Shown here: positions 50,465-57,338 of the stretch, one piece after another
Numbering within the stretch: the stretch's first letter is position 1
Layout of the letters: each line of letters opens with the position of its first letter
Made by a program: the position numbers and the translations under genes
Notes under the pieces: generated by a model
What the model saw: the letters and a program-made list of their open reading frames with translations, nothing else
The model's database searches: none
What the model was told of the DNA's origin: nothing
Source of the DNA: an uncultured Flavobacteriales bacterium
GTDB lineage: Bacteria; Bacteroidota; Bacteroidia; Flavobacteriales; Schleiferiaceae
Direction: 5' to 3'
Assembly (NCBI GenBank): GCA_913055685.1
Contig: CAJXKC010000002.1
Coordinates: 310,001-374,000, forward strand
Length of the DNA: 64,000 nucleotides

Positions 50465-51907
50465 CTAGCGTTTATTGCTGGTAAGCAAGATGTACTTGCG
50501 ACCGCCCATTTCCCATTCTTTTTGAATATTTAACCAGCTTATTGAACGCAGGTATTCTTCATCTACCTTGGTATAAAAAGGAACATTATGACTGTCCCAA
50601 AGGAACAGGGCATTTGAATCAATCTGGCTGTAAAGCTCCAATTCCACGCGCTGCCAGTTAACCTGCTCCTCTGGGTTTAAAGGATTGTGTCCCGAGAGTA
50701 GGGAAAAATAGGGCAGGTCAGACACTAATTGCTTATCACGGAAATCGGGGTACTTTTCTTTGACATGAGGAAATACCTTCTTTTTTAAAAATTTTTGGTA
50801 GGGCCCAATGGCATAGGCTTGTTGATAGTACTTCTTTAATTCATGGGGTCGATCAATAGTGCTATATCCACTTAGTCCAAAAAAGACTATCGCAGCCACA
50901 ATATTAAGTTTAGCGGGGATATATCGGACAATAGTATTTAGGAAGTACAGACTGATTAACCACAATAGGGGGAATATTAAAATTAATACCCTTTCTAGGC
51001 CGGCTGAGGCGTATATTCCAAGCGTCCAAACAATACTATGAGCTAGAATGAAAATAAGCGAGGGGAGGGCAATTACCAAAAGCTCATTCTGCGCCCAAGC
51101 CTTTTTTCGAAAGGCTATAATTAGCATCAGAACAAGGCCCACCAAGAAGCTTAGGTTTATGGGCATGCTTAGCATGATATTTAAACGCTCTAGGTAATGA
51201 CTCCAAGTTCCACTGCCATAAACGCTGGCTCCAGCAACATAAGGGCTATTAAACACCCATAAAATATCCCCTCTAAAATAGGACCCAATTATAGAGTAGG
51301 ATAAAGTGCCCAAGGCTAGCAAAGGAACATACTTAAGCTGTTTATTCAGGAGACCGTATAAAGCAAAAAGGGGAAGAAGCACCTGTGCTTCACTGCGACA
51401 AAATGGAAGAAAAGACAGCAGACTATAGGCGGCAAAGGCCATTCTTTTGTCGCTCTGACCTTTATTTAAAAGGTAGAGGCCCAGAATTAACACTAGGGCG
51501 GCAAAAGGCTCGGTAAGACCTGTGTTAAGATAGCTTATAAAGGCCGGCCCACTAAAAGCGATAAGCGGTATTAAAAAAGGCCGGAGCCATTGTTTCTCAA
51601 TAGCATATAGGCTAGTGAAATAGGAAGCAGCGACTCCGCATAGAATGTTAAATACTTTAATGCCGGCAAATCCAAATAGAGTCCAAGGTGCAGCGAAAAG
51701 GGTGAAAAAGGGTTTTGCCCAGGAGCGAAAGAGTGCGTCAGGGTCACTTAAAGCTTGGTTAGCCCAGAAAAAATGCATGATGGTATCGCCTTCACCACCT
51801 ACAGCGGGATTTAAAAAAGCGATGCTAGCTAAAACTAGGAAGAGAAGAATATGGGAAGCGAGCAGGATTCTTTTCAAGCGAGGAGTTTTAGAGTAAATCC
51901 AAATCAC
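50465..51907 (-). CDS. Multi-pass membrane protein, probable GT-C glycosyltransferase
   Basis: A 480-residue protein with ~11 hydrophobic helices in the first ~360 residues and a soluble C-terminal domain. An acidic motif GGEGDTIMHFFWA sits in the first exterior loop, as in polyprenol-phosphate-sugar-dependent GT-C transferases. It has no closer family I can name; mannosyltransferase- or PMT-like enzymes are the best guess. It overlaps the yciO gene by 20 bases and shares its transcript. Confidence 0.68.
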   Translation of the reverse strand: MIWIYSKTPRLKRILLASHILLFLVLASIAFLNPAVGGEGDTIMHFFWANQALSDPDALFRSWAKPFFTLFAAPWTLFGFAGIKVFNILCGVAASYFTSLYAIEKQWLRPFLIPLIAFSGPAFISYLNTGLTEPFAALVLILGLYLLNKGQSDKRMAFAAYSLLSFLPFCRSEAQVLLPLFALYGLLNKQLKYVPLLALGTLSYSIIGSYFRGDILWVFNSPYVAGASVYGSGTWSHYLERLNIMLSMPINLSFLVGLVLMLIIAFRKKAWAQNELLVIALPSLIFILAHSIVWTLGIYASAGLERVLILIFPLLWLISLYFLNTIVRYIPAKLNIVAAIVFFGLSGYSTIDRPHELKKYYQQAYAIGPYQKFLKKKVFPHVKEKYPDFRDKQLVSDLPYFSLLSGHNPLNPEEQVNWQRVELELYSQIDSNALFLWDSHNVPFYTKVDEEYLRSISWLNIQKEWEMGGRKYILLTSNKR

Positions 51908-52511
51908 CTTTACCTTCTCGGATTACTTCTGGATAGCCTTCGCTTAAATCAACTACTGTAGATGCAAAAAGATCGCCTATGCCACCATCGATAACCAAAT
52001 CTACCTGGTGACCATATTTTTCGGCGATAAGCTCGGGGTCGGTGGTGTATTCTATGATTTCATCTTCGTCGTGCACCGAACTGGCAATTATCGGTCGGCC
52101 CAAGGCCTTAACAATTTCACGCGGTATGCTATTATCGGGAATACGGATACCGATGGTTTTCTTTTTGCGGTGGAAGATCTTAGGAATGGCGCTACCCGCT
52201 TTTAAGATAAAGGTGAAAGGTCCGGGTAAACAGCGGTTTAGAATTTTATAACTAGGCGTGTCAACCGATTTAGTGTAGGCACTTAAAATACTTAGATCGG
52301 GAAAGATTAAAGCAAACTCGGCTTTTTCAGGCTTTAAGCCTTTAATGCGCGCCACTTTATCGATGGCTTTGCCTTTATTGATATCGCATCCGAAAGAATA
52401 AACCGTGTCGGTGGGGTAAATAATTACCCCACCACGGTCTAATACTTCAACTACCCGGTCTATATCCTTAGGATTCGGATTTTCGGGGTATATGCGAATT
52501 ATTTCAGCCAT
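51888..52511 (-). CDS. yciO: YciO/Sua5/YrdC-family protein
   Basis: A 207-residue protein. The N-terminal GGVIIYPTDTVYSFGCDI and ARIKGLKPEKAEFALIFPDLS, then LPGPFTFILKAG and KKKTIGIRIPDN are closest to E. coli YciO in length and order, including the C-terminal VIREGKGD. YciO is a paralogue of TsaC, which makes threonylcarbamoyl-AMP for tRNA t6A, and is poorly active. So automatic annotation as L-threonylcarbamoyladenylate synthase may overstate its function. The start overlaps the aldolase stop by one base (TAATG). Confidence 0.88.
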   Translation of the reverse strand: MAEIIRIYPENPNPKDIDRVVEVLDRGGVIIYPTDTVYSFGCDINKGKAIDKVARIKGLKPEKAEFALIFPDLSILSAYTKSVDTPSYKILNRCLPGPFTFILKAGSAIPKIFHRKKKTIGIRIPDNSIPREIVKALGRPIIASSVHDEDEIIEYTTDPELIAEKYGHQVDLVIDGGIGDLFASTVVDLSEGYPEVIREGKGDLDLL

Positions 52512-53167
52512 TATTTATTTCCCTTGCGGTAGTCGGCTAAGAATTTTTCCAGACCAATATCAGTCAGTGGGTGGTTCAATAAACCAACAATACTGCTTAA
52601 TGGGCCCGTAATAACATCGGCGCCAATTTTGGCACAATCAATTACGTGCATAGTATGACGAACACTAGCGGCTAAGATTTCGGTTTCAAAACCGTAGTTG
52701 TCATAAATTAAACGAATGTCTTCAATAAGCTGAAGTCCATCGGTAGAAACATCGTCCAAACGACCGATAAAAGGAGAGACGTAAGTGGCACCTGCTTTGG
52801 CGGCAAGTAGAGCCTGACCAGCAGAGAATACTAAGGTGCAATTGGTTTTGATGCCATTGTCCGAAAAGTACTTAAGCGCCTTAACGCCGTCCTTAATCAT
52901 AGGAACTTTTACCACAATCTGTGGATGAAGGTCAGCTAGCGCTTCACCTTCTTTAATCATTCCTTCAAAATCGGTAGAGATTACTTCAGCACTTACATCG
53001 CCATCTACTAACTCGCAGATATCCACATAGTGCTTTAAAATGTTGTCTTGGCCAGTAATTCCTTCCTTGGCCATTAATGATGGGTTGGTGGTAACTCCGT
53101 CCAATACACCAAGGTCTTGGGCTTCCTTGATTTGGTCGAGGTTGGCAGTGTCAATGAAAAATTTCAT
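52511..53167 (-). CDS. fsa: Fructose-6-phosphate aldolase/transaldolase-like protein
   Basis: A 218-residue TIM-barrel aldolase of the short transaldolase class. The Schiff-base lysine is Lys87 in [50 protein letters not shown] and [12 protein letters not shown] are family hallmarks. It may act as a transaldolase (TalC) or aldolase; residue-level selection is not decidable here. ATG 53167 is chosen because the alternative at 53200 adds 11 non-conserved residues. The stop overlaps yciO by one base. Confidence 0.92.
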
Positions 53168-53211
53168 GGAGTGATTAAATTTTGCCGCAAAGTACGGCAT
53201 TTCTCACGAGC

Positions 53212-55590
53212 TTAGGTAGCCTCAGATAGGATAAAATAAAACTCACTTCCTTGATCCACAGCACTGTCTATTTGTAGGCTGGAGTCCATGTTTAGCAGCA
53301 GTTCTTGACAAAGGGGAATACCTAAGGCAGTGCCTTTTTCACCACTGGTTCCAGGTTTAGAAACACTATTTTGATTTTGCAGTAGACGGTTAATTTGACT
53401 ACCATTCATACCAATACCATTATCGCGAACGGCAATTTTAACTTTGCCTCCTTCTAGACGCGTACTAATTAATTCGATGCGGCCAGTTTTGGGATGCACG
53501 AATTTAATGGCATTACCTAATAAGTTCCGCAGGACAATACGCACCGCGTCGGGATCCCCCTTAACTTGCAGGTCCTTTTCTACTTTATTGAGAATCTGCA
53601 ATTCTTTTTCTTCCACTTTCCCTTGAAACTACTGCAGGATATCATTCATAAGACGGTCGGCATAAAAAGCCTGTTTACTAAGTCTTAGGCCATCACTCTG
53701 TTGCTTTACCCAATCGAGCGTTTTCAACAAAAGGGTACGGGTTTTACCCAAGCTCTCGGAAATAAGGCGCATATGGGTTTTTATATCTTGATCGTCTTCA
53801 AGCGAAAGCTTGGCGAGCTCTAAACTGCCAATTACGCCCTCTTTGAGGTCATGGGCCAGCAGCGATAGCATTTTTTCTTTGGCCTCATTGGCTTTGCTTA
53901 GGGCATTGGACTTTTTAACCAGCTCCTGACTTTTGCGTTGATTTTCGGTAATGTCGGTAATGACCACTACGAAGCCTTGCGGATTTCCATCGCTCTCGAT
54001 TAAGGCTAGGGAAATAACGTGGTAGAAATTTTCGCCGCCAATTTCATGCTGACTAATATTTTGGAAATTGCCTTTTTCCAGCGCATTCTTAAAGTGATTT
54101 TCCCATGCAGTAGCTATTTCGGTCTTATTAAACTGTGGCAGAAAAGGCTTGTCCAGAGAAGCCTTAAAACCCAAATAGTCCTGCATATAGCGCAGAGCGG
54201 TTTTGTTGGTGAAAACTAAATTAAGGTGCTCGTCCAAGGCAAATACCGCATTGTCCATGGCATTAGCCGCGGCAATGGTTCGCTTAGATAGAATGGTTAC
54301 TAGATGATTCGCCCTTCTTAAATTGTTGTTGAGTCGGTAAAAGATTATAAAGCCAATAAGGCTAATTATGGTAAAGATGGTAATAAGCGCAATAGTTCGA
54401 TTTTGCGATTTAATCACCTCTTCTTGGCTTTTGCTTTTTTGCTCTAACAGGCTTAGCTTTTCGCGATTGTCAATAAACTCCCTTTGAGCCTGAAACAAGT
54501 CGGATTGCAGACTATCCTTTAAGGAAATGATTTTACTTCCTAATAAGTTAATTTCTCTCAGAAGTAAGTCAGCTTTACTATCAGAGCCTTTTTTACGCAA
54601 GGCCTTTTCCTTCTTGAGTAGATAATGATAAAGCCAATCTTTGTTACCAGTTTTTCTAGAATAGGCGATACTACTATCTAAGTATCGTATCAAACTATCA
54701 TTTTGCTTAGTTTCTTCAAATAGCCTAATTTTTAGATTTAACCAATCACGTTCCTGAAAAGGTCGTTCCATTTTCGAGGCTTTCTGAAGGTATTTTGCAG
54801 CTTTTTCAAATTCCCCTTTATCCAAGCTTAAATCGGCCCATTCGGTATAAATCTGACCAAAAAACTCTAAGTTTTTAGCCATGGCCGCATGATATTCAGC
54901 TTGCTGGAGGCAGGAGTCGGCCATGGAATGCTTGTCAAGAATACGGTAAGTACGGGAAAGGTAAAGCAAAGAGTGGGCGATGGGAAAGTGTTTCTTAAAG
55001 TTTAAGCGCAGTTCAAATGCTTTAGTAAAACTTTCAAGAGCCTTTTTTGGACGATCCAATTTTAAATGTGACAAGGCGATATTATTGTAGGCTACTGCTG
55101 CACCGTATTCATCCTCATTAGATAACATCACCTTAGCACAATCCTCAAAAATTTGGATAGCATCTTCATAAAGGGCGACCTCATAAAGCACAATCCCATA
55201 ACCGGTTAAGAACCAGCCTTCCTGACTCCGTTCACCTTGGGTTTGGGCATGACCCAAGTACTGCATGCCTTCTCTGAAGTTTCGTAAGGACTCAAGGTAT
55301 TGGCCTTTCTGACTGTAAAGCATTCCTTGGTGTGCCTTAATACTCATTATCCGAAATAAACCACCATGCTCCAAGGAAAGGTTTTCGGCTATTGATAAAT
55401 ATTCTAACCTTTCTTTTAAAGAGTATTCGGGGTTTTCCCCCATGAGATAATATGCGAAGATGTATTTTTCCGGACAATCAAGGCTATCGCAGGATTCACG
55501 GGCAGTATTTAATAATTCGGAACCGGTATTCTGACCAATAGAATTTTGGACAAAGAAAAAGAGGAGTACTATTAGACTTTTGATTCTCAA
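53212..55590 (-). pseudogene. TPR-PAS histidine kinase interrupted by one in-frame TAG
   Basis: A single open frame on the minus strand, broken only by TAG at 53629-53631. Upstream part (653 residues, 53629-55590): signal peptide (1-20), TPR repeats (~60-330), a coiled coil, a membrane helix (~399-420), a PAS domain (~445-550) and a DHp with His580 in LLAHDLKEGVI. Downstream part (from 53616): a complete HATPase_c domain with N box NLLGNAIKF, G1 DNGIGM and G2 GTALGIPL. The stop falls in the DHp-to-ATPase linker, ...NDILQ*FQGKVEEKE..., with no frame change. So this is a nonsense mutation, a sequencing error, readthrough, or two polypeptides (GTG at 53616 could start the second). The ATPase domain shows no decay, suggesting a recent or tolerated event. 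Confidence 0.85.
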
Positions 55591-55654
55591 TTAATCGGCG
55601 CTAGAATAATTCTTACGAAGAACGTAAAAAATACCGAGTGAAAAGAAGAAAAGT

Positions 55655-55759
55655 AATAAGGCAAGCGATCCATATCACACCGCTACGACCGATTACCCTT
55701 GCTGCGTTCCCGCCCTGGGGGAGTTCATCAGGAGCTGGTTGTATGGGACTTGCCTTATT
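55655..55759 (-). ncRNA. ffs: Signal recognition particle RNA (4.5S, bacterial small type)
   Basis: On the minus strand the sequence contains the SRP domain IV signature around ACTCCCCCAGGGCGGGAACG and GCAGCAAGGGTAA, with the conserved symmetric and asymmetric loops for Ffh binding. The ends close with an 11-base-pair stem, AATAAGGCAAG (5') with CTTGCCTTATT (3'). It is about 105 nt, starts 6 bases after a -7 promoter box, and is followed by a T-rich tract. SRP RNA joins Ffh to target membrane proteins. Open reading frames predicted on either strand here are spurious. Confidence 0.93.
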
Positions 55760-55764
55760 GCCTG

Positions 55765-55772
55765 CAAAAATA
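55765..55772 (-). promoter_or_regulatory. -7 promoter box for SRP RNA
   Basis: CAAAAATA on the plus strand is TATTTTTG on the minus strand, an exact TAnnTTTG. Six bases downstream is the predicted 5' end of the SRP RNA stem, the spacing expected for a -7 element. Confidence 0.6.
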
Positions 55773-55817
55773 AGGGCTTTCGGAGAAATGGAAAATTTTT
55801 TCCAAGCAATATTCAAT

Positions 55818-55825
55818 TATATTTG
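55818..55825 (+). promoter_or_regulatory. -7 promoter box for the DUF4199 operon
   Basis: TATATTTG matches TAnnTTTG, 17 bases before the ATG of the DUF4199 gene. No clear -33 element at standard spacing. Confidence 0.45.
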
Positions 55826-55842
55826 TCCAATAAGTAAACACT

Positions 55843-56373
55843 ATGCAAAACAACCGTCAAGCCATAATCAACTTCGGACTTATCCAGGGACTGGTAAGTG
55901 TCGCATTAGCAGTGGTTTTATACGCTACTGGCAACTATAATATGAGCGGTCAGGGTGACGCGAATATTTTATACTCTATTCTAAATTTAGCGGTTTCCGT
56001 GACCTTTCCCTTACTCGCAATCTTAAAAGTTCGAGAATTAAGTGGAGGATTCATAAGTTTCGGTAAAGCTTTTAGCACCGGATTTCAGGTGATTCTAATT
56101 GCTTCCATTTTAGGAGCGGTTTGGCTATTAGTATACACTACTAGCTTAGAGCCAAATTACCAGGAAGCGATTTTGCAGAATAATTATGAGCAGATGGCCG
56201 AGCGCGGTATGACTACCGAGCAAATCGACCAGTCCATCGAAATGACCAAACGCTTTACTACGCCTACTTTCATGGCGGTATTTGCAGTACTAACCTCGGC
56301 CTTTTTCGGGGCTATTATTGCTTTAATTTTAGGAGGAATCTTACAAAAGAAAGACCCTAATTCAATCGTTTAA
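55843..56373 (+). CDS. DUF4199 membrane protein
   Basis: A 176-residue integral membrane protein with four predicted helices (around residues 8-27, 43-60, 75-98 and 145-168). The pattern INFGLIQGLVSVALA..., FISFGKAFSTGFQVILIASILGAVW and a terminal AFFGAIIALILGGILQKK fits DUF4199, a Bacteroidota family. Between helices 3 and 4 an exterior or interior loop reads TTEQIDQSIEMTKRF. The function is unknown. The next gene, a GT2 glycosyltransferase, follows 5 bases later, an order repeated in many Bacteroidota. Confidence 0.85.
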   Translation: MQNNRQAIINFGLIQGLVSVALAVVLYATGNYNMSGQGDANILYSILNLAVSVTFPLLAILKVRELSGGFISFGKAFSTGFQVILIASILGAVWLLVYTTSLEPNYQEAILQNNYEQMAERGMTTEQIDQSIEMTKRFTTPTFMAVFAVLTSAFFGAIIALILGGILQKKDPNSIV

Positions 56374-56378
56374 AAACT

Positions 56379-57338
56379 ATGGATTTATCCTTAGTCATTC
56401 CTCTTTATAATGAGGAAGAATCGCTCCCCGAATTGTACCGCTGGATCTGTAAAGTAGGGGAAGCGGAAAAATTAGATTTTGAAATAGTCTTCGTTAATGA
56501 TGGCTCTACCGATAATAGTTTGCCGGTTTTAAAAGAGCTGGCGGCTCATGACTCAAGGGTTAAGATTATTTCTTTTCGTCGTAATCATGGTAAGTCGGCC
56601 GGCTTAAATGTAGGCTTTGCAGCCGCTTCTGGTGATGTGGTTATTACCATGGACGCCGATTTACAGGATAGTCCGGATGAGATTCCAGACTTGATGCGGA
56701 TGATTAAGGAAGACAATTTTGACTTGGTAAGTGGCTGGAAGAAAAAGCGTTACGATCCCATTTCAAAAACCATTCCTACTAAGTTTTACAATTGGACGAC
56801 CCGCAGGATAAGTAAGATTCACTTACATGATTTCAACTGTGGCTTAAAAGCCTATAAAAACGAAGTGATCAAAGCGATTAATGTCCAAGGTGAAATGCAC
56901 CGTTACATTCCTGTTCTTGCAAAGAATGCCGGCTTTACAAAGATTGGAGAAAAGGTAGTTCAACATCAAGCTCGGAAATACGGTCATACTAAATTTGGTC
57001 TAAGCCGCTTCATTAACGGGCCTTTAGACTTGATAACCCTTAGCTTCGTTTCGAAATTTTCGAAAAGACCGATGCACTTTTTTGGGCTCTATGGTACTTT
57101 GATGATGCTTTTTGGATTTGCTGCGGCCTTCTATATTGGGGCAGAAAAATTAATTGCTCTGCAAATGGGGCATAAAGCCCCTTTGGTAACCGATAATGCT
57201 TTCTTTTATATAGCATTAGCAACGATGGTAATTGGGGCACAGTTGTTTTTAGCTGGTTTTGTAGCGGAGTTAATTATTCGCAATAGTGCCAGGCCTGTAG
57301 AATACACTGTTGAAGAAAGGATCAATTTTGAAGATTGA
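56379..57338 (+). CDS. GT2 glycosyltransferase with C-terminal membrane helices (DPM1/GtrB-like)
   Basis: A 319-residue membrane-anchored transferase. The GT-A domain has LVIPLYNEEESLPELY, FVNDGSTDNS, the metal-binding DAD in MDADLQDSPDEI and the acceptor motif around KKRYDP...FNCGLKAY. Two helices at ~230-260 and ~275-300 anchor it. This layout is typical of polyprenyl-phosphate mannosyl/glucosyltransferases, which make lipid-linked sugar donors on the cytoplasmic face. It overlaps the next GT2 gene by 11 bases. Confidence 0.92.
   Translation: MDLSLVIPLYNEEESLPELYRWICKVGEAEKLDFEIVFVNDGSTDNSLPVLKELAAHDSRVKIISFRRNHGKSAGLNVGFAAASGDVVITMDADLQDSPDEIPDLMRMIKEDNFDLVSGWKKKRYDPISKTIPTKFYNWTTRRISKIHLHDFNCGLKAYKNEVIKAINVQGEMHRYIPVLAKNAGFTKIGEKVVQHQARKYGHTKFGLSRFINGPLDLITLSFVSKFSKRPMHFFGLYGTLMMLFGFAAAFYIGAEKLIALQMGHKAPLVTDNAFFYIALATMVIGAQLFLAGFVAELIIRNSARPVEYTVEERINFED

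Follow-up and report, generated by a model that had tools for sequence, protein, structure and literature searches.

What does a single in-frame amber codon mean in a sensor histidine kinase gene that is otherwise open from end to end? The gene lies in a 64,000-nucleotide stretch (the window; G000:C2:310001-374000) of an uncultured Flavobacteriales genome of 2.96 Mb, assembled in 8 contigs and 99.93% complete. Our reading, held with moderate confidence, is that an ordinary sensor kinase is present here as a recent nonsense allele, whose product keeps the sensor and DHp parts but no working ATPase domain. The relatives encode one continuous protein and we found no sign of decoding or of a deliberate split, so the stop most likely arose by a recent loss-of-function mutation or is an error in the sequence.

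As the first-pass annotation of this DNA had described, the minus-strand frame from 55590 to 53212 is open except for one internal TAG (53629..53631, minus strand). The frame comprises 792 codons, begins with TTG and ends with TAA, and the TAG is codon 654 (counting TTG 55590 as codon 1). The TAG separates an upstream part of 653 codons (53632..55590, minus strand), which carries the TTG start, from a downstream part of 138 codons that runs to the TAA (53212..53628, minus strand), and there is no homopolymer at the site (53631-53629). Four of the 59 open reading frames in the window, the kinase included, stay open for more than 43 codons beyond their own stop. The other three enter a separate downstream gene (368, 351 and 394 codons), which argues that the continuation of the kinase frame is not due to chance; its 138 open codons carry on the same protein, and the orthologue alignments pass straight across the TAG position.

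The encoded protein has the domain order signal peptide, TPR, transmembrane segment, PAS, HisKA-type helices and HATPase_c. Before the stop, Pfam reports TPR families and, weakly, PAS families; after it, HATPase_c is matched completely, at 68.5 bits against a cut-off of 26.4. Pfam HisKA gave no reported match to the kinase even at E values up to 1. Judged by eye, the N-terminus resembles a signal peptide, and ahead of the PAS-like part lies a hydrophobic segment, suggesting that the TPR sensor is periplasmic. The H-box histidine (codon 53851..53853, minus strand, in LLAHDLKEGV) is invariant among the aligned congeners, as is the motif AHDLKEGV in all four of them. The usual phosphatase motif is HE/DxxN/T, and its N/T is lacking from the H-box of this kinase group (53853-53833 in the window, minus strand), which reads HDLKEGV. 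In the downstream part, the N box (NLLGNAIKF) and the G1 box (DNGIGM) are intact. The first-pass annotation had listed a complete HATPase_c domain with N, G1 and G2 boxes and no decay other than the stop; the Pfam domain, the N box and the G1 box bear this out, but the G2 box is altered to GTALGI, with alanine (codon 53326..53328, minus strand) in place of the middle glycine that every one of the 15 other orthologues whose G2 box can be read has kept. Because the TAG lies between them, the histidine and the ATPase domain are not on one translated product in this genome.

The kinase is single-copy in its own genome, where nearly all other matches are to other kinases and cover the C-terminal half only. 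Among 88 family genomes surveyed, 17 have the orthologue, and orthology is secured by gene order: SRP RNA, kinase, transaldolase and Sua5 follow one another, with a glycosyltransferase also flanking. In the window, the small SRP RNA (RF04183) is directly upstream on the same strand (55655..55762, minus strand), as it is in 16 of the 17 orthologous loci (L001-L008, L010-L016, L084), and the transaldolase-like neighbor directly downstream (52511..53200, minus strand), conserved in position, is 83-91% identical in relatives. The conserved linkage of SRP RNA and sensor kinase could mean that the two are transcribed together, or that the sensor is connected with protein export. In a comparison of congeners across 51888-57338 of the window (loci L072-L076), identity is about 78-90% for the glycosyltransferase, transaldolase and Sua5 genes that flank the kinase but only about 32-45% for the kinase itself, a fast-evolving gene in a conserved neighborhood. 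The TTG start is common to the genus: in all seven members a TTG in frame lies 62-75 nt behind the 3' end of the SRP RNA, no in-frame ATG occurs in that stretch, and TTG is the apparent start. Most other genera of the family, unlike this one, have an ATG there. We considered the non-ATG start as a sign of decay and rejected it, as it is a genus-wide feature.

Fourteen of the 17 orthologues are uninterrupted single open reading frames; the remaining three are the window gene, a copy cut by a contig end (G002) and a copy with a TAA of its own (G001). None of the 17 family loci holds a naturally two-gene orthologue, an arrangement that the first-pass annotation had named as grounds for refuting its reading. 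In the four nearest congeners with sequence at the stop column, the residue is Glu (GAA or GAG), which does not favor the CAG or TTG codon that had been suggested as the ancestor. More distant relatives vary at this column, so many residues are tolerated there and the interruption is the derived state; as expected of a pseudogene, it is absent from the uninterrupted orthologues and from the congeners with Glu. Two of the orthologues, in CP051243.1 (L073) and JANSYJ010000003.1 (L074), share the domain order, the neighbors and the upstream SRP RNA and are 43-45% identical to the window kinase over the whole length; they differ in having an uninterrupted frame, Glu at the stop column and GTGMGL at the G2 box.

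The copy with its own TAA belongs to a congener, the Flavobacteriales metagenome-assembled genome UBA7878 (DLRW01000033.1, L003/L072, G001:C94:5274-7631), where the same gene carries one in-frame stop in the ATPase domain. That stop is a TAA next to the G2 box, whereas the stop of the window gene is a TAG elsewhere, and it would have arisen separately, either as an event of its own or as a fault of that assembly. Between L002 and L003 the ATPase domain is strongly constrained, with 5 amino-acid changes in 149 codons, although dS is high or saturated and the dN/dS ratios are rough. This constraint despite the TAA indicates that the stop in UBA7878, like that of the window gene, is either recent or an error.

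The kinase core, modeled with AlphaFold as a read-through product (mean pLDDT 74), has the stop within a folded domain. Confidence is lower in the DHp helices (blocks with pLDDT 51-60) and the ATP lid, and blocks around the stop site reach 81-91. The model has two long DHp helices (model residues 119-169 and 171-202), followed by a strand (211-214), two helices (215-225 and 227-232) and the N-box helix (251-268). In this model the stop is residue 225, in the helical stretch 215-232 that forms helix 1 of the ATPase (CA) domain; the predicted first strand and first helix of that domain correspond to 53608..53673 (minus strand), and the upstream part of the gene thus also encodes strand 1 and the greater part of helix 1. 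The TAG had previously been placed exactly between the DHp and ATPase domains, in a natural linker. The break looked like a linker because the Pfam HATPase_c boundary, at residue 678, begins later than the structural domain; the case is useful as a caution, a stop that lies between domains by Pfam boundaries lying within the fold once the structure is modeled. The DHp and CA fold of the read-through model resembles that of HK853 of Thermotoga maritima (2c2a, 3dge; Foldseek E about 1e-14 to 1e-15, phmmer 2.5e-9), an uninterrupted kinase that is a relative only at the level of the fold and of distant sequence similarity.

To compare rates, the tree was fixed and branch lengths were refitted for each domain with L006 as outgroup. 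No acceleration of the ATPase half was seen, the part after the stop lying at 1.92 from L006 versus 2.14-2.22 for the congeners. Either the stop arose recently, or it is not real, or the cell still uses the protein; these rates are equally expected in all three cases, and a stop of recent origin does not show in the rates. A contig search for a second genome of the same species brought up nothing beyond distant kinases and other species of the group, from a collection that may omit near-identical records, and a literature search for a comparable stop-interrupted kinase yielded nothing directly relevant.

The main rival explanation is a fault of sequencing or assembly, or a consensus that took up a minority allele, with the organism's own gene intact. 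We give it an appreciable but clearly minor chance. It would fit the ordinary rate of the ATPase half, the fact that no other gene in the window looks split by a stop, and the origin of the other interrupted orthologue in a metagenome-assembled genome. On the other hand, the assembly looks clean and the site is not homopolymeric, which together favor a real substitution, and the G2 glycine is changed as well; furthermore, no internal stop occurs among the matches listed (about 150 of 324 for each of the HATPase_c and ABC_tran families) in seven genomes of the genus. A translational route to some full-length kinase, by readthrough or recoding of the UAG, is very unlikely. It would account for a frame and a domain that remain intact past the stop with no increase in rate, and in E. 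coli tRNA-Gln misreads UAG at a low level (PMC5289835). However, targeted searches of the genome found RF1 (prfA; family match of 508 bits, cut-off 423) and no tRNA with a CTA anticodon among the 33 tRNA genes found, and the congeners have no TAG at the stop column. The codon ends 13 of the 59 open reading frames in the window and is thus an ordinary stop here, and the base that follows it (T; U at +4 of the message) is one linked with low readthrough (PMC5289835), so that any readthrough would probably not exceed background.

Split kinases are known both in nature and as engineered constructs (PMC3591291, PMC7656254), and this gene could in principle be expressed as one: the 653-residue product would supply the sensor and the histidine, and re-initiation at GTG 53616 would supply a stand-alone ATPase acting in trans, as in the engineered split EnvZ. 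The domains of EnvZ do function as separate polypeptides in vitro, and the HATPase domain is absent from 3.66% of HisKA proteins (PMC3591291). The open reading frame proposed earlier from this GTG (residue 659, 13 bases past the stop) does exist and would encode 134 residues (53212..53616, minus strand), but its product would, according to the model, be missing the first strand of the CA domain and the greater part of its first helix, which speaks against a stand-alone ATPase. The break falls inside CA helix 1, not between folded domains as in a split kinase; in addition, none of the orthologues is split by nature, the G2 box has its middle glycine replaced, and the H-box HDLKE departs from the HE/DxxN/T phosphatase motif that has served to select candidate bifunctional split kinases (PMC3591291). 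CheA3/CheA4 of Rhodobacter sphaeroides (PMC3591291) and Hik36-Hik43 of Synechocystis (PMC7656254), in which the histidine and ATP-binding parts are on separate open reading frames, are two-gene systems shown to work as pairs; the window kinase, in contrast, is one fused gene broken inside a folded domain in one species. We therefore regard split expression as improbable. Less probable still is that the stop is both real and kept, a one-gene kinase having become two-part within the genus as a DHp sensor without a complete ATPase plus a re-initiated ATPase fragment. Of the options offered by the first-pass annotation, these observations agree with a fresh loss of function or with an error in the sequence, while readthrough and split expression are disfavored by RF1, the lack of a suppressor among the tRNAs found, the U at +4, the position of the break inside the ATPase domain, the fused orthologues and the changed G2 box.

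For the recent nonsense allele, we infer that the base is real in the organism, the change recent and the product inactive. The ancestral gene would have been a TPR-TM-PAS-HisKA-HATPase sensor kinase behind the SRP RNA, as in the family, in which a substitution gave rise to a premature UAG within the first helix of the ATPase domain. At this codon, RF1 would terminate translation and release a protein of 653 residues that keeps the sensor and the phospho-accepting histidine helices without a complete ATP-binding domain. Lacking that domain, the truncated product would presumably be unable to autophosphorylate, and the pathway would be off or misregulated in this strain, although the product could have some residual role.

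Read as a nonsense allele, the finding is an ordinary one: one more nonsense-interrupted gene, whose status turns on the read data. If the two-part kinase were true, the independent stop of the congener in the same domain would point to repeated loss or detachment of the ATPase part, and if the stop proved to be fixed and both products to be active, the gene would show a split kinase just coming into being.
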